From Phycisphaerae bacterium (lineage in GTDB: Bacteria; Planctomycetota; Phycisphaerae; UBA1845; PWPN01), in the NCBI GenBank assembly GCA_012729395.1, contig JAAYDF010000186.1, positions 1 to 34,231 on the forward strand: DNA of 34,231 nucleotides. The letters are read 5' to 3'. The translations under genes and the position numbers were made by a program. Positions 4,181 to 23,871 of this stretch are shown here, piece after piece; position 1 is the stretch's first letter, and each line of letters opens with the position of its first letter. The notes beneath the pieces are model-generated. The model was given only the letters and a program-made list of their open reading frames with translations. It had not been told where the DNA came from and searched no databases.

Positions 4181-4257
4181 GCAATAGCGGTAGAGTAACA
4201 CCGCGGCTGGAACTGACGCGAACATCCAGAAACACCATGTCATACAGGAAGCCAGCG

Positions 4258-6000
4258 ATGGCCAGGCAAACGGCATCAACGATTACCTTGGGCTCGATCG
4301 GAAGTGCGGTCTGGCTTGTGACGGCATGGCTGGTCCCGGCGATGGCGGCGGATGCACAGCGAGCGATGCCGAACATCGTCTTGATCGTCACGGACGATCA
4401 GGGCTGGTGGGACATGGGGGCGCATGGTAACGCGACGATCTCCACGCCGGTGATGGATCGCCTGACCGCCGAGGGAGTATCCTTCAGCCGGTTCTACGCG
4501 ACTCCGGTCTGCGCACCGACGCGGGCGGGCCTGATGACCGGCCGCCACCACCATCGCACCGGAGCCATCGACACCTACATGGGGCGTGACACGCTCGATC
4601 CGGCGGAGGTGACGCTCGGGCAAATCATGCAGCGGCGCGGCTACCGCACCGGATTGGTGGGCAAGTGGCACCTCGGCCGATACCGGCGCTATCACCCCAA
4701 CCTCCGCGGCTTCAGCGAGTTTTTCGGGTTCTGGCAGTACGGCTACGTCAACCGGTACGACGATCCGGATGAGCTATTCCATCAGGCCGAACCGGTCATC
4801 ACGACCGGCTACATCACCGACGTGCTGACCGAAGCGGCGACGGAGTTCATTCGGGCCGATCGCCTTCAGCCGTTCTTTCTGGCCCTCTGCTACAACGCGC
4901 CGCATTCGCCATACCTGGTGCCGGACCGCTACATCGAGCCGTACCTAGCCAAGGGGTTGCCGCTCTCGCAGGCTCGGGTATACGGCATGATCACCTGCCT
5001 GGACGACAACCTGGGTCGGCTGCTGGCGGTGCTGGATGAGACGGGTATCGCCCAAGACACGGTGGTCATCTTCATGAGCGACAACGGCGGGGTAAGCAGC
5101 TACTTCAAGGCGGGGCTGCGCGGGCAGAAAGGTACGGTGTACGAAGGTGGCATCCGTGTGCCGTTCATCGTGCGTTGGTCCGGGCGTCTGCCCGCCGGTG
5201 CTCGCATCGAGGGTATGGCCCAACACATCGACGTGCTGCCGACGCTCTGCGAGCTGACCGGGGCAGACCTGCCCAGCGACCGACCCATCGACGGTCGGAG
5301 CCTGTGGCCGTTGATCCAGCAGGGCAGCGGCGCCAGTCCGCACGAGTACCTGTTCCATCAGTGGTGCCGTGTCCGGCCGGATGCGTCGAAAGGGTGGGCG
5401 GTGCATCACGGCCGGCACAAGCTGGTCAACGGCGAGCTGTACGATCTGGAGGCCGACCCGGGCGAAAAGACGGACTTGGCGAACCAGCGGCCGGAGCTTG
5501 TCCGGCCATTGCGGGAAGCATTTCTCAAGTGGTTCGAGGAAGTCACCGCCGGTCGAGATGATGGCCCGCCCGCGATCCAGGTCGGCCGCGAGGATGAGAA
5601 CCCGGTGGAGTTGGATATCGCCTGGGCAAGGCTGATCGGCGAGTCGCCGGGCCTGCATTACCAGTTTCGCAGCTATTACCGCGATGTCATCATCGATTGG
5701 CGGAAAGCGGATGAGGGGCTGGCATGGTCGATCGACGTCACGCGACCCGGGGGCTATGAGGTCATCCTCCAGTACGCTTGCCCACCGCACGAGGCGGGCT
5801 CACTGGTGCGGGTTTCCGTTGGCGACGCGGCCTTGGATACCGTGATCGAGGCGACCGCGGCTCAAGATGTGTATCGCCCGGTGACCATCGGCACGCTCAC
5901 GCTGGCAGCGGGGCCGGCCACATTGGAGATGAGACCGGTCGCCGTCGCCGGCGGCGAATTGATGCGACTCAACCGGGTGTGGCTGCGGCGGGTGCCTTGA
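4258..6000 (+). CDS. Secreted arylsulfatase with C-terminal accessory domain
   Basis: A 580-residue type I sulfatase. I chose the ATG at 4258 because AGGAAG stands just before it; an ATG at 4237 would add seven residues and lacks an SD. A signal peptide covers about residues 1-31 (ends PAMAA). Sulfatase motifs: VLIVTDDQGWWDMG (metal-binding Asp pair), canonical formylglycine site C85-A-P-T-R89 followed by AGLMTG, VGKWHLGR, and FMSDNGG. The catalytic domain ends near residue 430. The remaining 150 residues, with GGYEVILQYACP and a final beta-rich part, look like a beta-sandwich accessory domain of the type often attached to carbohydrate sulfatases, possibly carbohydrate-binding. It is transcribed divergently from the nrnA-sulfatase pair. 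Unlike that neighbour, its active-site motif is standard. Confidence 0.94.
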   Translation: MARQTASTITLGSIGSAVWLVTAWLVPAMAADAQRAMPNIVLIVTDDQGWWDMGAHGNATISTPVMDRLTAEGVSFSRFYATPVCAPTRAGLMTGRHHHRTGAIDTYMGRDTLDPAEVTLGQIMQRRGYRTGLVGKWHLGRYRRYHPNLRGFSEFFGFWQYGYVNRYDDPDELFHQAEPVITTGYITDVLTEAATEFIRADRLQPFFLALCYNAPHSPYLVPDRYIEPYLAKGLPLSQARVYGMITCLDDNLGRLLAVLDETGIAQDTVVIFMSDNGGVSSYFKAGLRGQKGTVYEGGIRVPFIVRWSGRLPAGARIEGMAQHIDVLPTLCELTGADLPSDRPIDGRSLWPLIQQGSGASPHEYLFHQWCRVRPDASKGWAVHHGRHKLVNGELYDLEADPGEKTDLANQRPELVRPLREAFLKWFEEVTAGRDDGPPAIQVGREDENPVELDIAWARLIGESPGLHYQFRSYYRDVIIDWRKADEGLAWSIDVTRPGGYEVILQYACPPHEAGSLVRVSVGDAALDTVIEATAAQDVYRPVTIGTLTLAAGPATLEMRPVAVAGGELMRLNRVWLRRVP

Positions 6001-6088
6001 GTGGGGATGGATGAAGGAGGGGCGTCGGGATCGACGGCTGCGGGGATCGCACCGGCGGGGCCAAATGAGGACTGGCTCCGCCCTAGTG

Positions 6089-6256
6089 ATTCGGGCGTAA
6101 CTCGCCATCCGCGGGCGGAATGACCCATGGCGAAGCCCCAATGACCCATGAAGTCCGAATGACCCATAACCAATGTCCCCGCTCGCGGTTGGCGTTCTGG
6201 CTTTGGGCTTGGTTATTGATTGCTCATTGGGCCCTGGGCATTCGCCATTTTGCCCC
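6089..6256. repeat. Degenerate inverted-repeat element with three AATGACCCAT units
   Basis: The 307-base gap between the sulfatase (ends 6000) and the glycosidase (starts 6308) holds mainly this element. Identical decamers AATGACCCAT occur at 6119, 6140 and 6158. The right half (about 6200-6256) contains CATTGGGCCC and GGGCATTCGCCATT, roughly the reverse complement of the left half, so the whole could fold into a long imperfect stem. The first 30 bases (6089-6118) resemble 23901-23929. It looks like a non-mobile dispersed intergenic repeat. No gene is seen in 6001-6307; an in-frame upstream extension of the next gene through this element is rejected. Confidence 0.6.
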
Positions 6257-6307
6257 GGGAGCCATGCGGCCAGCGAGTTGCACGCTCGTGATTCGTGGAG
6301 GTCGTCC

Positions 6308-7432
6308 ATGCGGTGGAACAATGGTCGGGCGAGCGGTCTGGATCGTCGGGCGTTTCTGCGTTTATCGGGCAGGTCAGCCCTGGCTTGGGCTTTGAGTGCG
6401 GGGCGGACGGCGCGAGCGGACGAAGGCGGGGGCACGTCGGCCATCGAGTTCGAGGAAACACTGGCCAGCCAGCGCGAGCGATTCTACCGCGAACGCGAAG
6501 TCGACATCATCCAGACCGGCTTCCGCCCCATCGGCGGCAAGGTGGCCGACTTCGCCGTCGCTCACCTCGACGGCCGCGTGCATTTCTTCTACATCGAGCG
6601 CCGCCTGCAGGAGGGCACACCGTTCTACCCGGGCCACGAGACGTACTTCGGGCACGCCTCCACCGCTGACTTCACCCGGTGGCAAGTGCATGATCCCGTC
6701 CTGCTCATCCGTCCGGGAACGTGGGAGGGGGTACACGTCTGGGCCCCGTGCATCCTGCAACGAGGGCATCGTTACATCATGGCCTACACCGGCGTCAACC
6801 AGCATGTGTCGCAGAATATCGGCCTGGCGTCCAGCGACGATCTACTCGAGTGGAAGCGTTGGGACACCAACCCGATCTCACCGTGCCGCGACAGTGCCTG
6901 GGCTTTCTGGCGCGAAGACGGCATTGCCAGTTGCCGGGACCCGAATCTCATCGAGCACGACGGCCGCTTCTTGCTGACCTACACCGCCAATACAAAGGAG
7001 GGGGCGTCCTGCATCGCGATGACCTCCTCGCCGGACCTGGCCACCTGGCGCGACCAGGGTCCGATCTGTATCGGACCGGCCGGCGGGTATGAGCCGCGCC
7101 TCGAAGGCGGACATCCCCAGGGCAGCCTCGAATCCGCCAATCTGCTCACCCGCAAAGGCCGATGGTTCCTGCTAGTCAAAGCCAAAGTCCGCGAGGACAA
7201 CAACCGTTCGTGGGTGATCACCAGCGATCGTCCGAATCGGTTCGAGTTCGGCTTGCGGCAACCGTTCTGGCCGGGATCACTGGCCGTCGAGATCGTCGCC
7301 AACCGCGATCAGGAGTCGCTGGTGGCCACCTTCGTCGATGGCGGTATCCGTTTCGGCGTGACCGACTGGCGCAAGCCGAGCCCCACCGCTCGTTTCGTCA
7401 CGTCCACTAATGAATTGGCCGGCTGGCTCTGA
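6308..7432 (+). CDS. Tat-exported GH43/GH32-like five-bladed propeller glycosidase
   Basis: A 374-residue protein with a twin-arginine signal (LDRRAFLRLSGRSALAWALS, residues 11-30, then TARA). GGAGG seven bases upstream fixes the start at 6308, so the longer frame from 6173 is not used. The mature protein reads as a GH43/GH32-type propeller: blades with Asp/Trp strands such as STADFTRWQVHDPVL, VHVWAPCILQRGHRYIMAYTG, SSDDLLEWKRWDTNPI, CRDPNLIEHDGRFLLTYTA and SSPDLATWRDQGPI. The WAP and RDP stretches are where catalytic acids sit in such families. It probably acts on furanoside or related glycosidic bonds of plant or algal glycans in the periplasm. Family assignment is by pattern only; GH117 or GH130 relatives are alternatives. 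Its position after a sulfatase fits joint desulfation and hydrolysis. Confidence 0.78.
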   Translation: MRWNNGRASGLDRRAFLRLSGRSALAWALSAGRTARADEGGGTSAIEFEETLASQRERFYREREVDIIQTGFRPIGGKVADFAVAHLDGRVHFFYIERRLQEGTPFYPGHETYFGHASTADFTRWQVHDPVLLIRPGTWEGVHVWAPCILQRGHRYIMAYTGVNQHVSQNIGLASSDDLLEWKRWDTNPISPCRDSAWAFWREDGIASCRDPNLIEHDGRFLLTYTANTKEGASCIAMTSSPDLATWRDQGPICIGPAGGYEPRLEGGHPQGSLESANLLTRKGRWFLLVKAKVREDNNRSWVITSDRPNRFEFGLRQPFWPGSLAVEIVANRDQESLVATFVDGGIRFGVTDWRKPSPTARFVTSTNELAGWL

Positions 7433-7608: not shown

Positions 7609-8448
7609 ATGTCCATTACCAAACTGTCTGTCTGTGCGCTCATTGTGAGCTTCTGTACGCTGTCCGCCCACGCCGGGCTGATCGTCGACGGCCGCCTCAA
7701 CGACTGGGGCGTCACCGTGGCCGATAACAACGGCAGCAACTTCACCACCTGGTCGTCTACCGTCGCACTGCTCGGGTCCCACGTCGATGATACCGATGAT
7801 TCCGCGGGCCATAGTTTCTTCCTGGACCCCAACTACGGCGGGCAGGATTTCGATGCCGAGATGATGGCCGTCGCCGTGCAGGGCAATCGGTTGTTCATCA
7901 GCATCGTCACCGGCCAGCGACCGGATAACGGCTTCAAGTACTTCGAGCCTGGCGATATCCGCATCGAGACCTCCCTGGGCACCTACGGCATCGAGGTCGG
8001 CGGCGGCAAGGGCGGCAAGGGCGGCTCGGCCATCAGCGACGGCGCTTCCGGATCCACCTATAAGATGAACAGCAACGGCGATGTCACCGATCATTACACC
8101 GCCAGCTCCCGTCAAGTGGCCGGCTCTATCTGGGCCGACCTGGACTGGCTTGCCGATCCCATTGCCCCCTATGGCCCGGTTCAGTTCAAGATCGACGGCG
8201 ACAGCACGTTGGTCGGCCAGGCTGACTACGTCTTCACCCGCAACTCGTATACCACGCAGCATGCGGTCATCGAACTCGCTTTCGACCTCGACGTGCTGGA
8301 AGGGGCGATGATCCAGTCGGTGCACTGGCGACCGACCTGCGGCAACGACGAACTCAATGTCCAGTTCGACGCGGTGCCGGAGCCGACGACAATCGCCTTC
8401 CTGGCTCTCGGTAGCGTGGCCTTTCTGCGGCGGACCCGTCACGCGTAA
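7609..8448 (+). CDS. Secreted PEP-CTERM sorting-domain protein
   Basis: A 279-residue exported protein with a signal peptide (MSITKLSVCALIVSFCTLSAHA, residues 1-22) and a C-terminal PEP-CTERM tail: the VPEPTT motif, a hydrophobic stretch (IAFLALGSVAFL) and a basic end (RRTRHA). PEP-CTERM tails are recognised by exosortase-type enzymes and send proteins to the cell surface or extracellular matrix. The central region starts with DGRLNDWGV, a strand pattern found in CBM9-like and other beta-sandwich surface domains, and has a Gly/Lys-rich turn (GGGKGGKGG) near residue 130. No catalytic motif is seen. GGGAG lies about 12 bases before the ATG. It has its own promoter and is followed by two hairpins, so it is probably expressed alone. 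Confidence 0.9.
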   Translation: MSITKLSVCALIVSFCTLSAHAGLIVDGRLNDWGVTVADNNGSNFTTWSSTVALLGSHVDDTDDSAGHSFFLDPNYGGQDFDAEMMAVAVQGNRLFISIVTGQRPDNGFKYFEPGDIRIETSLGTYGIEVGGGKGGKGGSAISDGASGSTYKMNSNGDVTDHYTASSRQVAGSIWADLDWLADPIAPYGPVQFKIDGDSTLVGQADYVFTRNSYTTQHAVIELAFDLDVLEGAMIQSVHWRPTCGNDELNVQFDAVPEPTTIAFLALGSVAFLRRTRHA

Positions 8449-12280: not shown

Positions 12281-12697
12281 TTACGCCTGCCCGGCAGGCG
12301 AGGCGCCCGGCGAAGGCGACGTGCCGAGCCCGGCTATCTGGACGAACACCATCCGCAACTCCTGAAGGGCTCCGTCGATCAGCCGCTTCTCCTGCTCGGT
12401 CACGTTGCCGGCCGTCTTCTGCTGCAAGACCTCCAGCAGATCGATGTAGTGCTTGGCCAGCGGAAGTTGCGCCGGGATACGCTGACCCGTTTGGGGATCC
12501 TGCATACCCCCAAGCCCGATCGAGGCCTGGATGATGATCAACTGCACGATCTCCGCGAGGCTCGGTGTCGGCAGGCCCCCTTCCTCCTCCTGCTCCTCGC
12601 GCGCGAGACGGTCCGCCTCCTCTTTCTCCCGCTGGGCCTGGGCCTTCCAGTCGTCGTCCACAATAATCCGGCCCTTGTCGTCCTGGGGCTCCGTCAT
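12281..12697 (-). CDS. DUF1844 family protein
   Basis: A 138-residue soluble protein. The start at 12697 follows GGGAGA; a frame open to 12760 is not used. Residues 1-45 are charged and probably coiled (KAQAQREKEEADRLAREEQ). The DUF1844 core follows: LAEIVQLIIIQASIGLG, PQTGQRIPAQLPLAKHYID, LLEVLQQKTAGNVTEQEKRLI and a final LQELRMVFVQ helix. Function of the family is not established. It is the first gene of the operon with rhomboid, aroB and cinA. The C-terminal tail is short, Ser/Pro/Gly/Ala-rich and probably disordered. Confidence 0.9.
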   Translation of the reverse strand: MTEPQDDKGRIIVDDDWKAQAQREKEEADRLAREEQEEEGGLPTPSLAEIVQLIIIQASIGLGGMQDPQTGQRIPAQLPLAKHYIDLLEVLQQKTAGNVTEQEKRLIDGALQELRMVFVQIAGLGTSPSPGASPAGQA

Positions 12698-12805
12698 GGT
12701 TGTCTCCCATGGGTTTCGCAACAGCGGCCTATCCCGCCGTTTCGCCTGCCGGGGTATCATAACACCCCGGGCGCCGTGTTCCTACCTTGGGTTGAGGAGC
12801 CCGGC

Positions 12806-12824
12806 CGAGATACGTAGTATCTCG
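12806..12824. promoter_or_regulatory. Perfect palindrome CGAGATAC-GTA-GTATCTCG
   Basis: Two 8-base arms around a 3-base centre in the divergent intergenic region, about 45 bases upstream of the probable -10 of the DUF1844 operon. Size and symmetry suit an operator for a dimeric regulator; a short hairpin is the alternative. Confidence 0.4.
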
Positions 12825-12852
12825 ACCACCGATGCCCGATCCTCCGTCGCGG

Positions 12853-12880
12853 CAGAAGTGGGGACAGGCACTTTTCTGCC
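12853..12880. repeat. REP-like hairpin with GGGGACAGGCACTTTT core
   Basis: GCAGAAGTG at 12853-12861 pairs with CACTTTTCTGC at 12870-12880 with a two-base bulge. The core resembles a short intergenic palindromic sequence I recall from many environmental bacterial genomes, sometimes near REP-associated transposases. It is a single isolated copy here, with no transposase in the window. Confidence 0.45.
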
Positions 12881-13057
12881 TTGAGGCCTTGCTGACGCGA
12901 GAGGGGCGATGTGCGGTCAGGTGACGGAGCCGCGAGGAAGGCCCTCACGTTGGCAAGAAAGAGCCAGTCCCCGCGCGGTCCCTCGGTCGGGAATGACACC
13001 CATCCCGCGTGAACGCACAACGCGGGCTAACCCCTGTGGCTTGTTCAGGTTACGCTC

Positions 13058-14872
13058 ATGATGGCCGGCGGCGACAACACGAAACACACGCTTCTTGCCC
13101 ACGGCCGGTGGACCTGGCACCTGGACCCCGCATGGCGGCACCTGCTCGACGGGCCGGCGTGCCCCGATTGGCTGGCCCTTGAGCGCGATGACCGGGCAAC
13201 ACTGGTCAAGCGAAACGATGACCGCGATGTCTGGCGGGTGAACTTGGCCAGCCGGACACTCTACGCCAAGATCAGCCGTCCGGGACAACGGGGGGCTCGG
13301 CTCGCTCAGTGGTGGTTCGGCTCGCCGGCCCGCCGCGAATGGAACGTCGCCCAACAGGCCGCCCGGCACGGCGTCGAGACCATCCGCCCGGTAGCCTGGG
13401 CCGAGGAAGCCATCCGCTCAGACCGCCCCACGAGCATCCTGCTCACCCTGGAAGAAACAGACGCCCACCCACTGGCGGAAAGCTGGCTCGCCCTGGACCC
13501 CGCCGAGCCGGGCGCACGCTCAACCCGCAACGCGATGATCGACGTTGTCGCCCGACTCGTTGCCCATGCACACCAAAGCGGGTTCGAGCATTCCGACCTG
13601 CACGCGGGCAATGTGCTCCTGCAGACGCGGGGCAATACCTTCCGGGCGGTGTTCGTGGATTTGCCGGGCATCCGGACCGGCCAGCGCGTCTCGGACGCCG
13701 GCGTCGTGCGCAATCTCGCCCAACTCAACCAGTGGTTCCAGATCCGCGGAACGCTCACCGATCGCCTGCGGTTCCTCGACCGCTACCTGCATTGGCGCGA
13801 TGCCGTGCAAAGCCAGTGCCCCTTCGGCCGCCGCTTGGGACTCGATCGCCCGGCCCTGCTGCAAGCCCTGGAGCGGGCGACCCACCGCCACGCCGAGGCC
13901 CTCTATGCCAAACGCGACCGCCGGGCGATGCGCGATGGACGGTACTTCACCCGATTGCGTCTGCCGGGCGGGTGGCGGGGGCACGCGTTCCTAACCGCCA
14001 AGCACGAGATCGCCGGCTCGCCCGCCGCCAGCCTGACCCTGAGTAGAACGCAATGGCAAGCCCTGCTTGCCGACCCGCAGCGATGGGTCGAACCCCAAGA
14101 CCGAAGCCGCGTCATCAAGGACTCAGCGTCGGGGATGATCTGCTGGGATTGCCTCGACGCCGGCGACGGCCGGCAACTCAAGGTGGTCTACAAGCGATCA
14201 CGGCCGAGAAACCCGCTCAAACTCCTGCTGCATAGCCTTTGGCGATCGCGACCGATGCTCACCTGGCGACGCGCCAACGCCCTGTTGAACCGGCGAATCC
14301 CCACGGCCCGGCCGCTGGCGGTGCTCGAACGCCGCCGCCTCGGCCTGCTCGCCGACAGCTTCATCATCACCGAGTACCTCGAACACGCCCGCGACCTCGA
14401 CACCGTGCTCACCGTCCTCCTGCGGAACGAGAAGCCCACGCGACAACGCACGGTCAAACGCCAGATCACCACCGCACTCGTCCGCGTGCTGCGCGACCTG
14501 CACGACCGCGGCTTCATCCACCGCGATCTCAAGGCCCCCAACGTGATGGTCCAGTGGAATCCCGCAGGCGAAGAGCCCGCGCGTGTGTTGCTCGTCGACC
14601 TCGACGGCTTGCGGCACAGAGGCTATGCCTCGCCCGCTTGGCAACGGCGGGCCCTGATGCGGCTCAACATCAGCCTTGAGCAGTGCCGGCGAGTCAGCGT
14701 GACCGACCGCCTGCGATTCCTGCAAGCCTACCTCGCCCGCACCGGCCATCCCCAGCCGGAGTGGAAGAGCGTCTGGCGGCAAATCGCCGTCGAGTCCGCC
14801 GACAGCCGCGGCTACTTCGCCCGCCAGCGGCAAAAAACCCTCCGCCGGTTTGAACAATCAGCAAAGGAGTAA
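13058..14872 (+). CDS. Tandem-domain lipopolysaccharide (WaaP/Kdo) kinase-like protein
   Basis: A 604-residue protein with two kinase-fold domains of the WaaP/KdkA/InaA type in one chain. Domain 1: ATP-binding Lys in TLYAKISR (K71), RREW motif (92-95), catalytic HSDLHAGN (178-185) and metal-binding Asp in VFVDLPG (D201). Domain 2: VVYKRSRPRN (K379), HRDLKAPN (488-495), LLVDLDG (D514). Both catalytic segments are followed by the same TDRLRFL...YL stretch (234-244 and near 566-576), supporting an internal duplication. The family phosphorylates lipopolysaccharide core sugars or Kdo at the inner membrane; normal members have one domain of about 230-280 residues. Start 13058 with CAGGT upstream; an adjacent ATG at 13061 is possible. 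Each domain keeps its catalytic residues. Confidence 0.88.
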   Translation: MMAGGDNTKHTLLAHGRWTWHLDPAWRHLLDGPACPDWLALERDDRATLVKRNDDRDVWRVNLASRTLYAKISRPGQRGARLAQWWFGSPARREWNVAQQAARHGVETIRPVAWAEEAIRSDRPTSILLTLEETDAHPLAESWLALDPAEPGARSTRNAMIDVVARLVAHAHQSGFEHSDLHAGNVLLQTRGNTFRAVFVDLPGIRTGQRVSDAGVVRNLAQLNQWFQIRGTLTDRLRFLDRYLHWRDAVQSQCPFGRRLGLDRPALLQALERATHRHAEALYAKRDRRAMRDGRYFTRLRLPGGWRGHAFLTAKHEIAGSPAASLTLSRTQWQALLADPQRWVEPQDRSRVIKDSASGMICWDCLDAGDGRQLKVVYKRSRPRNPLKLLLHSLWRSRPMLTWRRANALLNRRIPTARPLAVLERRRLGLLADSFIITEYLEHARDLDTVLTVLLRNEKPTRQRTVKRQITTALVRVLRDLHDRGFIHRDLKAPNVMVQWNPAGEEPARVLLVDLDGLRHRGYASPAWQRRALMRLNISLEQCRRVSVTDRLRFLQAYLARTGHPQPEWKSVWRQIAVESADSRGYFARQRQKTLRRFEQSAKE

Positions 14873-14963: not shown

Positions 14964-15878
14964 CTACGGCCGCTGCTGTCCTCGCTGGGCCGCATGAGCA
15001 GACCCGCCTGGTGAGTCAGCCTCGGTGAGCCACCAGCTGGCAATGGGTCGCTGCGCGTCCGTGAGGCAGTCGGCCTGCTCCAACGCCCCCCACAAATCAG
15101 CGATGGCCTTCCGTAAACCCGTCCGCCGATCGAACACGCAATTGGGCTTCGACTCCAGCACAGCGCGTAGCGAGCGATCATGATCCGTCAGCATCGTACC
15201 AAGGAACGCCGCCCGGCCCTTGGCCAATGCTTGGATACTTCGAGCGGCCGTACTCCACATCTGCGATTCTACCTCATCGACATCCGTGCCAAGCAGCATC
15301 AGATTGCACGGGTTCTCGGGCGAGGCTTGCTTCAATGCCGTCACCGCTCCGCGAAACGCCGCGTAGCTGAACCGATCCTGCCTCCAGCGGGCATGGATCT
15401 CGGCAATCGCGAATCCGACATGGGCTTTCTCCATGGCCACGGCCCTTCTGAGGCGCTTCCCATAGTCCGCGAGGCGACCATCCCGAGCATCACGCCGCTC
15501 AGCGCGATCCTTCCGCAATCGCTCGTTCTCCTTCCCAATATCTTCGCGGCGGCCTTTCTCGCCACCGGATATGTAGAGGGCATTCCGGATCTGCCTCTTC
15601 CGCTCGCGAGCCGATTGCTCTCTTCTCTTGACGGACTGTTCGGCACTTTCGCGAAGTTGCGCCGCCGATCGCCGAAGGGACTCCTGCACCGGCCCATACA
15701 ACTCCCTGGCTTGCCGTCGGGTTTCCTGTAACTCCCGCTTGTATATCGCCTCCTGCTCAGTCAGTAAGGGGCAATTCGTATATTGTTCCGCTATCTCGGC
15801 GGCAGGTTGACTGGTGGGCGTCGCCTCGGCCGAGCCCACAGCGACGCAGAGTGCCAGAAGATGGCTGATGATGAACAT
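14964..15878 (-). CDS. Secreted coiled-coil hypothetical protein
   Basis: A 304-residue protein, not recognised. AAGGAAG precedes the ATG. Residues 1-19 form a signal peptide (MFIISHLLALCVAVGSAEA). Residues 40-150 are highly charged and helical, rich in Arg, Glu, Gln and Lys (ELQETRRQARELYG, LRESAEQSVKRREQSARERK), and should form a long coiled coil. The second half is mixed helical with Cys residues in NPCNLMLLG, PNCVFDRR and ADCLTD that could pair in the periplasm. The last residues are low-complexity. No enzymatic motif is seen. It stands alone, convergent with the tandem kinase gene (91-base gap). Confidence 0.72.
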   Translation of the reverse strand: MFIISHLLALCVAVGSAEATPTSQPAAEIAEQYTNCPLLTEQEAIYKRELQETRRQARELYGPVQESLRRSAAQLRESAEQSVKRREQSARERKRQIRNALYISGGEKGRREDIGKENERLRKDRAERRDARDGRLADYGKRLRRAVAMEKAHVGFAIAEIHARWRQDRFSYAAFRGAVTALKQASPENPCNLMLLGTDVDEVESQMWSTAARSIQALAKGRAAFLGTMLTDHDRSLRAVLESKPNCVFDRRTGLRKAIADLWGALEQADCLTDAQRPIASWWLTEADSPGGSAHAAQRGQQRP

Positions 15879-18420: not shown

Positions 18421-20211
18421 TCACTCGTTGATGCCCCGGCCGGGCAGGCGGCGGACAACGAGTTCACGGACGGTGAGTTGACGACGGTCGCCGTCGATGG
18501 CCAGGCGCAGGTCGGCGCCGTTGCAGCGGTTGCTAAGCAAGGCGTCGGGCAGTTGGCGTGTGATTGATCGCCACGTGCCGGTCTGGCCGACGGTTACGGC
18601 AGGGCTGGAACGGAACGCGCCCGCCAGCGCACCGGACTCGGGATCGCTGCTGTCGTACTCGATCCAGAACCGGCCACAGCCGCCGTCGTCGCGATAGACC
18701 ACGGTGACCTCGGCGGTCAAGCCCACATCGCCAAACACATAGGAATCATCCACGTCGAAGTACAGATAGCGTCCCCACTCGGGTCGTGCGCCCTCGATGC
18801 TGCTGACGGCCGGCGAGTCGTCGACGACCGTCCGGTGCCAGCGGCCGTCCCCGCCGCTCTCACGGAGATGGAGCCCGCCCACCCGTCGGCCCGACCACGT
18901 CACCCGGCTGGCGTTGACGAAGGAGCCTTGCGGATCGAGTCGCGCGCCGGCCCGGAAGGCGTCGGCGTATTTGGCGGTCGCCCGCATGTACAGATCGTTG
19001 GCGTCGTGCGAGCGGGCGATATCGGTGCCCTCGTGCCATTCGTTCCAGGTCTCGACGTGCACGATCCACGGTCGGCACACGGGGGCGATACGCAGCAGGC
19101 TCTCCCATTGCCGGTCGTAGAAAGCCCCGCGCTGGCGGCCGACGATGAGCGGAGGCCGGCGGCCCTGGACGGCGGATTCGTCGTAGCCGGGCCCCAGGGC
19201 CGCGACGTGCCGCCCGATCTTCAGCCCGGTCGCACCGCCCCAGAAGTACCAGGCATCTGCCCTACCGGGCCAGTCCATGTGATGCACCAGGAACAGGTCC
19301 GTGCCGAACTCCGCCTGGAACCGTGCCCGCAGGTCGGTGAACAGCTCCTCATCGACCGCGGCCGCGAAGGAGGCGGCATACAGGAACACGATCGGTCGGC
19401 CGTCGACGCGGGCCCACTGGTTCGGCGGGATCAGGCTCCAGAAGTCGCGGATGGTGACGTAAAACCACGCGCGGCCCTCGTCGGTGGTCAGGTCGATCGC
19501 TTCCTTGGTGTCCCGGCCGTGATGCCGGAGAGTCGAGGTATCGTAGAACATGCCGATGGCCGGTGGTCGAGGAGCGGCCGCGTTTGATGCCCTGGCCGCG
19601 GTCATGCGTTCGTGAGCTTGCACCAGGGCTCGCAGCCCGACGAAGCTCCACGCCTCATATTCGCCGGGCAGGCCCCAGTAGACCGGCATGACAAAGTCGA
19701 TGCCGGCGGCGGCGACGTCGAGCAACTGGCGTTCATGCCAACCGACGCTGCGATAGCTCAGGTCCGCCATGGCGTCGGCGGGCGGGCGGCGGGTCAAAGC
19801 GCTGGTGCCGTCGGGGTCGGTGATGTGCTCGCCGGTGTACACGTCGTACCAGTAGAAGTAGGTCGTGCCGACGATCGGTTGGCCTGTTCGCGACGACGGG
19901 CAGGAAGCGTGATCCTCGGCCGTCAGCCGGTGGTGAGGCCCGGGCGGTGGGCGATCCGTCAGCGAACCCGCATGCACCGCAGCGATCGCCGGACACAGCG
20001 CCGCCCAGCACACGAACAACAGACTGCGTGACAGGATCGGCGGGATCCGTTGCCAGGACCAAGGCAACTTGTTGCTGTTCGTCCCCCAAGCCTGGACACG
20101 TCCATCAACAAGTTGACTCCGTCCGCGGCGAATCGGCACCCCGCTGATTCTATCACGCACCCCGAACAACAAGTTGCACCGACGATCTCGCGACAAGACA
20201 CGATCCTCCAT
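18421..20211 (-). CDS. Secreted GH71/GH99-like (DUF5010-type) glycoside hydrolase
   Basis: Up to 596 residues. The catalytic-type region resembles DUF5010/GH71-GH99-like proteins: GTTYFYWYDVYTGEH, DPDGTSAL, WHERQLLDVAAAGIDFVMPVYWG, then HHMDWPGRADAWYFW and VHVETWNEWHEGTDIA, where the last Glu pair is the usual acidic cluster. The final 150 residues (RYLYFDVDDSYVFGD, VTVVYRDDGG) form a beta-rich accessory domain, probably carbohydrate-binding. It likely acts on an exported polysaccharide. The start is uncertain: the only ATG (20211) has AGGA five bases upstream, but the first 48 codons run through the repeat at 20110-20162 and the signal peptide (LLFVCWAALCPAIAAVHA) begins near residue 64. A TTG at 20067 would place that signal at the N terminus. 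It starts 47 bases after ptuB ends. Confidence 0.8.
   Translation of the reverse strand: MEDRVLSRDRRCNLLFGVRDRISGVPIRRGRSQLVDGRVQAWGTNSNKLPWSWQRIPPILSRSLLFVCWAALCPAIAAVHAGSLTDRPPPGPHHRLTAEDHASCPSSRTGQPIVGTTYFYWYDVYTGEHITDPDGTSALTRRPPADAMADLSYRSVGWHERQLLDVAAAGIDFVMPVYWGLPGEYEAWSFVGLRALVQAHERMTAARASNAAAPRPPAIGMFYDTSTLRHHGRDTKEAIDLTTDEGRAWFYVTIRDFWSLIPPNQWARVDGRPIVFLYAASFAAAVDEELFTDLRARFQAEFGTDLFLVHHMDWPGRADAWYFWGGATGLKIGRHVAALGPGYDESAVQGRRPPLIVGRQRGAFYDRQWESLLRIAPVCRPWIVHVETWNEWHEGTDIARSHDANDLYMRATAKYADAFRAGARLDPQGSFVNASRVTWSGRRVGGLHLRESGGDGRWHRTVVDDSPAVSSIEGARPEWGRYLYFDVDDSYVFGDVGLTAEVTVVYRDDGGCGRFWIEYDSSDPESGALAGAFRSSPAVTVGQTGTWRSITRQLPDALLSNRCNGADLRLAIDGDRRQLTVRELVVRRLPGRGINE
20110..20162. 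repeat. Copy 2 of the 53-bp structured dispersed repeat
   Basis: It matches 1-53 at 45 of 53 positions. Its hairpin is 20130-20137 with 20143-20150 around the loop ACCCC, with one pair a G-U wobble on the plus strand. The changes between copies mostly keep the stem paired. It lies in the proposed N-terminal codons or leader of the gene ending at 18421. Confidence 0.6.
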
Positions 20212-22617: not shown

Positions 22618-23871
22618 ATGCGGGATTATCTCTGCCAAACGATCGTCGTCGCGGCCGTGGGGCTTACGTCGTGCGGGGTACTGCGGGCGGATTCGAGCAT
22701 GGTCAACGTGCGGGATCTCGGCGCCCGCGGTGACGGCCGATCGGACGATACGGCCCAGTTTCTCCAGGCGATCGGGCGAGCCAAGGCCCGGCAGGCAGGG
22801 GTTTTTGTGCCGCGTGGCCGCTACCTGCTCTCGAAGACCGTGCCGCTGGAGGGGATCGCGTTGACCGGCCTGGCCGTGGGCGCCTGGCCCGCCGACGTCG
22901 ACACCTTGCCCAGTATCATCCCAACGCACACGGACGGCCCAGCCTTTCAGCTTCTCGCGGGCGGCGCGATCTCGGGCATCGATATCACCTACCAGTGGCC
23001 CAGCGAACCCGAGGAAGGACCGGCCGCCGTCGTGATCAGCGGCATCGGCACCTGCATCCGCAACGTGCGCATCCGTTACGCATGGGACGGCATCATCGCC
23101 GACGGCGAGCAGAACGTCGGGCGAGCCAACATCGAAAACGTGTTCCTGGTCTCGATCCGCAACGTCGGCGTGCGGATGACCGGCACTCTGGACGTACCGC
23201 GGCTGGCGAACGTGGAGGTGTGGAACGCGGGGCCCGTGCCGCGCGGGCTTGCGCAGGGCATCGGGTTCCACCTCGGCCACAACGACCTCATCCGCCTGAC
23301 GGACTGCTTCGTGTTCGGGATGCACCATGGGTTCCTGCTGGAGGAGCGGATCGCGGGCTGCAAGGTCACCGGGCCGACGTGGGGCGTGATGAACGGTTGC
23401 GCCACGGATTTCTGCGTGGTGGGGATCGAGATCCAGGGCGGCCACACCTTGTCCGTCAGCGGGGGGACTTTCTGGAGCCACGAGGAGAGTCTGATCGTTG
23501 AAGGGACCGGCGGACGCATCCGACTGGCCGGGTGCGAGCTGAAGTCCAACGGGGCACCAGCCGTGGTGGTGCGCGGCGGCGACCATACGGTGCTCAGCGG
23601 CTGCACCCTGTTGCGAACCATGGAGGGCCTTGCCATCCCCGCCGTGGTGGCGGAGGCGGGCCGACTGGTGATCGGGGCCGGCTACATCGCCTCCCGCGGC
23701 GAGCCGGCGGTGATTATCGCGGAGGGCGTTCGCTCCGCGGCGATTCACGGCAACATCATCGCCACCGATGCCCTTCCCGCCGTGCGCGTCTCCGGGCAGG
23801 TAAACGAACAAGTCGCCTTGGCCGGGAACGTGATCGAGACGCCGACCGCTCCGCCGACCACACAGCCTTGA
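22618..23871 (+). CDS. Secreted right-handed beta-helix protein, pectate-lyase-3-like
   Basis: A 417-residue secreted protein with a signal peptide of about 24 residues (ends GVLRA). It opens with VNVRDLGARGDGRSDDTAQFLQAI, written here in part only, the N-terminal hallmark of the Pectate_lyase_3 superfamily, followed by VFVPRGRYLLSKTV. The rest is a parallel beta-helix: short turns with repeated Gly/Asn and hydrophobic strands (IRNVRIRYAWDGIIADGE, GGTFWSHEESLIVEG, LSGCTLLRTMEGL, IHGNIIATDALPAVRV). Members of the fold cleave or bind acidic polysaccharides, including phage-tail depolymerases; no catalytic residues can be named with certainty. GGGAGCAGG precedes the ATG. It is transcribed away from ptuA. 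Confidence 0.83.
   Translation: MRDYLCQTIVVAAVGLTSCGVLRADSSMVNVRDLGARGDGRSDDTAQFLQAIGRAKARQAGVFVPRGRYLLSKTVPLEGIALTGLAVGAWPADVDTLPSIIPTHTDGPAFQLLAGGAISGIDITYQWPSEPEEGPAAVVISGIGTCIRNVRIRYAWDGIIADGEQNVGRANIENVFLVSIRNVGVRMTGTLDVPRLANVEVWNAGPVPRGLAQGIGFHLGHNDLIRLTDCFVFGMHHGFLLEERIAGCKVTGPTWGVMNGCATDFCVVGIEIQGGHTLSVSGGTFWSHEESLIVEGTGGRIRLAGCELKSNGAPAVVVRGGDHTVLSGCTLLRTMEGLAIPAVVAEAGRLVIGAGYIASRGEPAVIIAEGVRSAAIHGNIIATDALPAVRVSGQVNEQVALAGNVIETPTAPPTTQP

Follow-up and report, generated by a model that had tools for sequence, protein, structure and literature searches.

Background

Phosphates on the lipopolysaccharide (LPS) core hold the outer membrane together in Pseudomonas, and the envelope of the Planctomycetes has been a matter of debate. 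The Pseudomonas heptose kinases WaaP, WapP and WapQ are described as separate proteins (PMC8005017). In P. aeruginosa, the waaP-wapP-wapQ-PA5006 set is reported to place within a single LPS operon several core kinases that serve several phosphate positions (PMC8005017, PMC8707732), with PA5006 described as a putative LPS kinase whose length is at least 493 aa (PMC8707732). Within P. aeruginosa WaaP, the stretch D223-F232 contributes R226, L228 and R229 to the acyl-ACP interface, and E78 is the alpha-C glutamate pairing with the lysine; the E78A mutant is viable but 128-fold more sensitive to EDTA (PMC6147952). Kinases with Phe at the position of this glutamate have also been described (E91-to-F; PMC1821047). 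A two-domain LPS kinase appeared in no title, abstract or passage covered by our literature search, for which most subscription papers were beyond reach.

The DNA analysed here, termed the window, is the 34,231 nt contig JAAYDF010000186.1 of a Phycisphaerae bacterium (assembly GCA_012729395.1). A reading of its letters and open reading frames, hereafter the sequence-only reading, had proposed that one polypeptide encoded in the window carries two complete WaaP/Kdo-kinase-like domains. Here we describe this protein, which we propose, with a probability of roughly 0.6, to be a bifunctional Kdo/WaaP-family sugar kinase of LPS or a lipid-linked core. What is new is that the two-domain pairing is old, that its halves are of two distinct types, that a repeated segment corresponds to the WaaP ACP helix, and that the gene is linked to glycosyltransferases outside the order.

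Results

Two PF06293 domains in one protein

The features of the gene are collected in Table 1. Its GC3 of 0.82 is the pattern expected of a coding gene, and a promoter scan returned nothing. Two stretches of the 604 aa product match Pfam family PF06293 (1.1e-34, 120.1 bits against a cut-off of 21.3), bearing out the proposal of two domains in one polypeptide, and each half on its own exceeds the cut-off in a six-frame search of the genome (57.6 and 68.8 bits). Self-alignment, as recommended by the sequence-only reading, indicates that the halves are homologous yet diverged (BLASTP E 1e-10, 35% over 96 columns). Narrower models score lower than their cut-offs: 97.9 for the whole protein and 51.8 and 53.0 for the halves with the RfaP/WaaP equivalog NF011703 (cut-off 170); 66.1 for the whole, 20.1 for the N half and 51.0 for the C half with the KdkA equivalog NF002475 (142); and 20.8 for the N half with the InaA equivalog NF007383 (235). 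The protein is therefore filed within PF06293 but as none of RfaP, KdkA or InaA.

Table 1. Features of the kinase gene, in window coordinates
Feature	Position	Strand	Basis
Two-domain Kdo/WaaP-family kinase, 604 aa	13058..14872	+	ORF, Pfam, GC3
N-terminal kinase domain, residues 41-290, predicted WaaP fold	13178..13927	+	family HMM 342.6 bits; whole-protein model
K71, ATP lysine of N half	13268..13270	+	aligns with E. coli WaaP YFLK lysine; 25/25
E94, alpha-C glutamate of N half	13337..13339	+	alignment
N-half catalytic loop H178-SDLHAG-N185	13589..13612	+	H, D180 and N in 25/25
D201, metal Asp of N half	13658..13660	+	kept in 25/25
TDRLRFLDRYL, residues 234-244	13757..13789	+	P. aeruginosa WaaP acyl-ACP-docking helix D223-F232 by alignment
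Conserved linker, residues 276-315	13883..14002	+	R286, D287, Y296, G305, W306 and K315 nearly invariant
C-terminal kinase domain, residues 347-599	14096..14854	+	family HMM 346.4 bits; own model
K379, ATP lysine of C half	14192..14194	+	24/25
T402 at the alpha-C glutamate position; C half without Glu	14261..14263	+	alignment
C-half catalytic loop H488-RDLKAP-N495, with D490	14519..14542	+	24/25
D514-LDG, metal Asp and DxDG signature of C half	14597..14608	+	24/25
TDRLRFLQAYL, residues 549-559	14702..14734	+	second ACP-docking-helix equivalent

The only other Pfam match within the protein is a partial one to the protein kinase family PF00069, which covers part of the C half and only positions 74-132 of the 263 in the profile, at 42.0 bits against a cut-off of 31.7. 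The C half also carries an HRDxKxxN loop, which is the loop of protein kinases, and both observations would suit a Ser/Thr/Tyr kinase involved in signalling. Such a role is nevertheless very improbable, as the PF06293 score of 120 bits far exceeds the 42 for PF00069, no further domain is evident in Pfam, both halves have the WaaP-type C-terminal helix and the gene is linked to glycosyltransferases in its relatives. Similarly, WaaP itself is reported to have shown no protein phosphorylation by mass spectrometry (PMC6147952).

Structure prediction agrees with the family assignment to differing degrees in the two halves. The AlphaFold2 model of the whole protein, built from only four sequences, has a pLDDT of 78.2 and a pTM of 0.62; its best Foldseek match is P. 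aeruginosa WaaP (6dfl, E 1e-12), which VIA places at rank 4 with a Z of 18.6, tied with PRPK/Bud32. As the VIA list for this model mainly covers residues 12-293, the C half was modelled separately (pLDDT 67.5), and 6dfl came first in both Foldseek (E 4e-8) and VIA (Z 9.8, rmsd 7.5 over 229). The sequence-only reading had staked its case on neither half lacking a kinase fold, and both match 6dfl in these predictions, the C-half model being weak; a WaaP fold is thus clearly predicted for the N half, and weakly for the C half.

Two types of half, both with catalytic residues

An ATP-binding Lys, an HxDLxxxN loop and a metal Asp had earlier been picked out in both halves, and these prove to be conserved among the full-length orthologues of the order, the window included. 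The N half retains Lys, H-x-D-[LM]-H-x-x-N and the metal Asp in 25/25, and the C half retains Lys, HRDxKxxN and DxDG in 24/25. The single exception, L040 (8454-10292, plus strand), has an intact N half and a C half without Lys, catalytic Asp, loop Asn or DxDG. Two residues past the catalytic Asp, N halves have H (27/27 in the order, 14/14 in the phylum) and C halves K (27/27 and 13/14, respectively). The alpha-C Glu is present in 26 of 27 order N halves, with a gap in the other, in all 14 phylum N halves and in 39/39 single WaaPs from LPS loci; it is absent from 26/27 order and 14/14 phylum C halves. As judged by these motifs the halves are distinct types, one with HxD[LM]HxxN and the alpha-C Glu, the other with HRDxKxxN and DxDG and without this Glu. 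NG86 estimates of dN/dS are about 0.15-0.28 in each half (four pairs), by which measure both are under purifying selection.

Both halves are apparently catalytic, and the two active sites envisaged by the sequence-only reading are probable on the basis of the residues and the two domains. The main reservation concerns the alpha-C Glu missing from the C half. Its absence from nearly every C half would suit an arrangement in which good catalysis is confined to the N half, with the C half weakly active or regulatory and serving to position substrate or ACP; likewise, L040 retains a C-terminal domain that has dropped its catalytic residues, and the N-type protein L058, from family f8, has a strongly degenerate second half. 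We consider this unlikely, given that Lys, HRD, Asn and DxDG persist under purifying selection in 24/25 order C halves, that stand-alone C-type genes exist and keep H, D, N and the metal D in 7/7, and that another residue at the Glu position has been described in kinases (E91-to-F; PMC1821047). On the preferred reading, in which both halves are active, the C half would represent a kinase lineage that has apparently been retained as a catalyst despite having no alpha-C glutamate.

The repeated TDRLRFL segment

The same TDRLRFL...YL segment had been noticed following both halves; its TDRLRFL part lies at residues 234-240 and 549-555. In a phmmer alignment to 6dfl, the numbering of which agrees with H161, D163, H168 and D188 as given in PMC6147952, the N-half copy falls on WaaP D223-F232. 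By alignment, then, the repeated segment corresponds to the helix with which WaaP docks acyl-ACP, and is not peculiar to the 604 aa protein. The R226 position and the basic K224 position are kept in the N half but R221, R222 and R229 are not, such that R226 is the only ACP-contact arginine of the helix matched by an Arg. The presence of this helix in each half suggests that both may bind acyl-ACP in the manner of P. aeruginosa WaaP, a role that the partial retention of these contacts leaves at the level of inference.

Distribution and history of the two-domain form

In the order sample, matches were found in 40/41 genomes, with none in G001, and match coordinates and ORFs place the two-domain form in 28/41; in G005 the C half is truncated. 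Eleven genomes of families f2, f6 and f8 have the N type alone or both types as separate genes. The N- and C-type genes lie on different contigs in G027, G030, G033 and G036, and about 0.98 Mb apart in G017, which is a single contig. Matches also occur in at least 15 of 198 other genomes of the phylum sample (E 1e-20) and at least 51 of 101 of the class sample (1e-15, the window's own included), these tallies being lower bounds, as at most 6 (phylum) and 13 (class) candidates were scored in each genome, and some of the matches cover less than both halves. The search across Planctomycetota that the sequence-only reading suggested therefore recovers the architecture in the order, class and phylum samples: it is ancient, and common in the phylum. 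The accompanying remark that a single domain is usual in the family understated the position here, as the two-domain form is both frequent and old in this phylum. The host genome is a draft of 370 contigs, which leaves room for the notion that chance or misassembly joined two genes, but the shared architecture of the 28 order-sample orthologues and of class and phylum relatives rules this out and makes its probability negligible.

Phylogeny of the halves, also suggested at the outset, was based on 88 domains of 150 aa or more from the window, 11 loci of the order, 9 of the 15 from the phylum and 10 of the 17 from the class, hand-picked for spread. L021-L023 were dropped from tree and neighbourhood counts, being the same places as L028, L043 and L030, and G022 was left out of the fetched loci. 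One clade (95/73, not starred) groups all 31 C halves with five C-type singles and contains no N half. The N rows do not all group together: a 22-row clade (96/89) unites the N halves of the order with half of those of the class, the N halves of class family f95 and most of those from the phylum lie outside the main N and C clades, and two from the phylum (L121, L122) are placed next to the C clade. Forcing all 35 N rows into a single clade comes close to rejection (p-AU 0.058). On this topology, the N and C types separated before the class diversified, and the separate genes of f2, f6 and f8 are most simply read, from these sequences, as the result of later fission.

A second kind of double kinase occurs within the LPS loci of the order (L070-L073, L097, L098), in which tandem WaaP genes accompany a fused two-Kdo-domain protein near GT9, GT4 and PlsY-type genes. 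In L070, L072 and L073, and similarly L097 and L098, the protein is about 575-621 aa long and, like the window kinase, has two PF06293 stretches in one polypeptide; it differs in being, by sequence grouping, an independent fusion, the L073 and L097 domains clustering with LPS-locus WaaPs in both trees.

Several relatives carry other additions. An 883 aa ORF in L034 (7343-9991, minus strand) combines an N-type kinase, a truncated C half and a GFO/IDH/MocA oxidoreductase domain, and a C-type kinase in L057 (8453-9724, plus strand) has an N-terminal match to the proprotein-convertase P-domain. In five loci of f2 and f8 (L051-L055), a Macro-domain gene is directly downstream of an N-type single kinase; these genes form one sequence cluster, with Pfam checked in L053.

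Gene neighbourhood

In the window, the kinase gene is divergent from minus-strand genes for CinA, 3-dehydroquinate synthase (AroB), a rhomboid protein and a DUF1844 protein, and is followed by a transketolase gene (GC3, Pfam). None of these neighbours is an LPS gene, as had been remarked from the sequence. The window also contains a 304 aa ORF (14964-15878, minus strand) with a signal-peptide-like start and a charged middle, which has no Pfam or NCBIfam match, and sulfatase, GH43/32-like, PEP-CTERM, GH99/DUF5010-like and pectate-lyase-like genes (4237-7432, 7609-8448, 18421-20211, 22618-23871), a set with a polysaccharide-degradation flavour.

Outside the order, 26 of 35 fetched loci have an adjacent glycosyltransferase gene (17/20 in the class, 9/15 in the phylum), which in 19 is a GT9 heptosyltransferase. 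The 20 class loci were outside-order matches, mostly covering both halves (L154, L157 and L158 are partial), selected without knowledge of their neighbours. The strict adjacency test excluded L058 and L070-L103; 14 of the 17 class loci passing the strict two-domain rule have a GT9 gene on the same strand, with its matched part starting 24-100 bases past the kinase. L156-L158 failed that rule owing to a weak N half, and were counted through an overlapping GT9 ORF downstream of the kinase. Families f93, f95 and f96 have a GT9 gene beside the kinase in every one of their 17 fetched loci, and the same holds for L050, L120 and L127, with Pfam confirmation in L050, L120, L127, L139, L149 and L157. 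Of the phylum loci, L120 and L127 have GT9, while L123-L126, L128, L130 and L131 have GT2 and/or GT4; in example loci, Pfam identified a GT4-type gene upstream and a DUF2062 gene downstream. Within the order, the strict adjacency test gave no adjacent glycosyltransferase in 27 of 28 loci (window included), several on short contigs or on ones that break off close to the kinase, L050 being the exception.

In L127, a single kinase, the double kinase, a GT9, an ABC exporter and a GT4-Kdo-kinase fusion lie close together on one strand. This last is a single 674 aa ORF (12291-14312, plus strand) in which a GT4 glycosyltransferase is joined to a Kdo-family kinase.

The host genome encodes LpxC twice (C260 and C176), one KdtA-type transferase and four GT9 proteins, as well as a separate single-domain kinase on C327 (L084) and a 561 aa one on C211. 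In a GT9 tree, the host copy on C312 nests with kinase-linked GT9s, next to those of L031 and L050 (17-row clade, SH-aLRT 87), and the copy on C94 groups with LPS-locus GT9s (100). By the position of the C312 copy, a partner-type GT9 persists in the host, unlinked from the kinase.

Discussion

The substrate, which the sequence-only reading had left open, is narrowed by the glycosyltransferases adjacent to the gene in 26 of the 35 loci outside the order. The kinase would work on the cytoplasmic side, at the inner membrane, where each half would bind ATP-Mg in a WaaP-like kinase fold and transfer phosphate to a sugar hydroxyl of nascent lipid A-core or another lipid-linked core oligosaccharide. 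Its partner would be a GT9 heptosyltransferase, the gene for which adjoins that of the kinase in many relatives but lies elsewhere in the host genome, and the repeated C-terminal helix could let each half dock acyl-ACP, as in P. aeruginosa WaaP. Some loci would also accommodate a target other than lipid A-core, namely another lipid-linked or surface glycan: f40-type loci pair the kinase with GT2, GT4 and a single kinase, with no GT9 next door, and order genomes also carry separate WaaP genes in LPS loci. We judge this improbable in view of the GT9 genes beside the kinase in L050, L120, L127 and every fetched locus (17/17) of f93, f95 and f96, which point to a heptose-containing core.

Assuming a core substrate, two diverged active sites would perform two phosphotransfers, for example at two heptose positions, or at heptose and Kdo. 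The early split between the lineages of the halves, before the class diversified, makes two different positions most likely, and the presence of the gene beside core sugar-transferase genes in phylum relatives makes it probable that phosphates are added at two places on the core. The sequence-only reading had allowed either for two positions or for regulation of one half by the other; the former is favoured, and against the latter, which is less likely, stand the catalytic residues and purifying selection seen in both halves and the occurrence of the halves as separate, unlinked genes in f2, f6 and f8. A more speculative extension, which we advance tentatively, is of a core kinase found throughout the phylum in which both halves dock acyl-ACP and phosphorylate different positions, with the C half compensating through some other interaction for its lost alpha-C Glu. 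A conserved two-domain core kinase and its linked heptosyltransferase offer a concrete handle on the core LPS of Planctomycetes, and the pair of kinases provides a natural experiment on why the two types remain coupled.

Comparison with known kinases

The window kinase resembles WaaP/RfaP, the heptose(I) kinase of the LPS core (P. aeruginosa, 6dfl; E. coli waaP), in its PF06293 assignment, predicted fold, Lys, HxD and metal Asp, and in a C-terminal helix of the DxLRFL type; heptosyltransferases also feature both among the waa genes and in the loci of its relatives. By contrast, WaaP/RfaP is a single domain of about 265 aa rather than two diverged ones, and has Y and H where the N-type half has H and N. 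Similarly, the Kdo kinase KdkA shares its superfamily and catalytic motifs with the C half, but consists of a single domain. The P. aeruginosa waaP-wapP-wapQ-PA5006 set, as reported, distributes its kinases over separate genes, whereas the window kinase is one polypeptide; PA5006, compared by its published description only, may hold two domains, and so is a possible known analogue. The best-supported reading, by analogy with the Pseudomonas enzymes as they are described, is that the two halves would carry out two phosphotransfers comparable with those of WaaP, WapP and WapQ.
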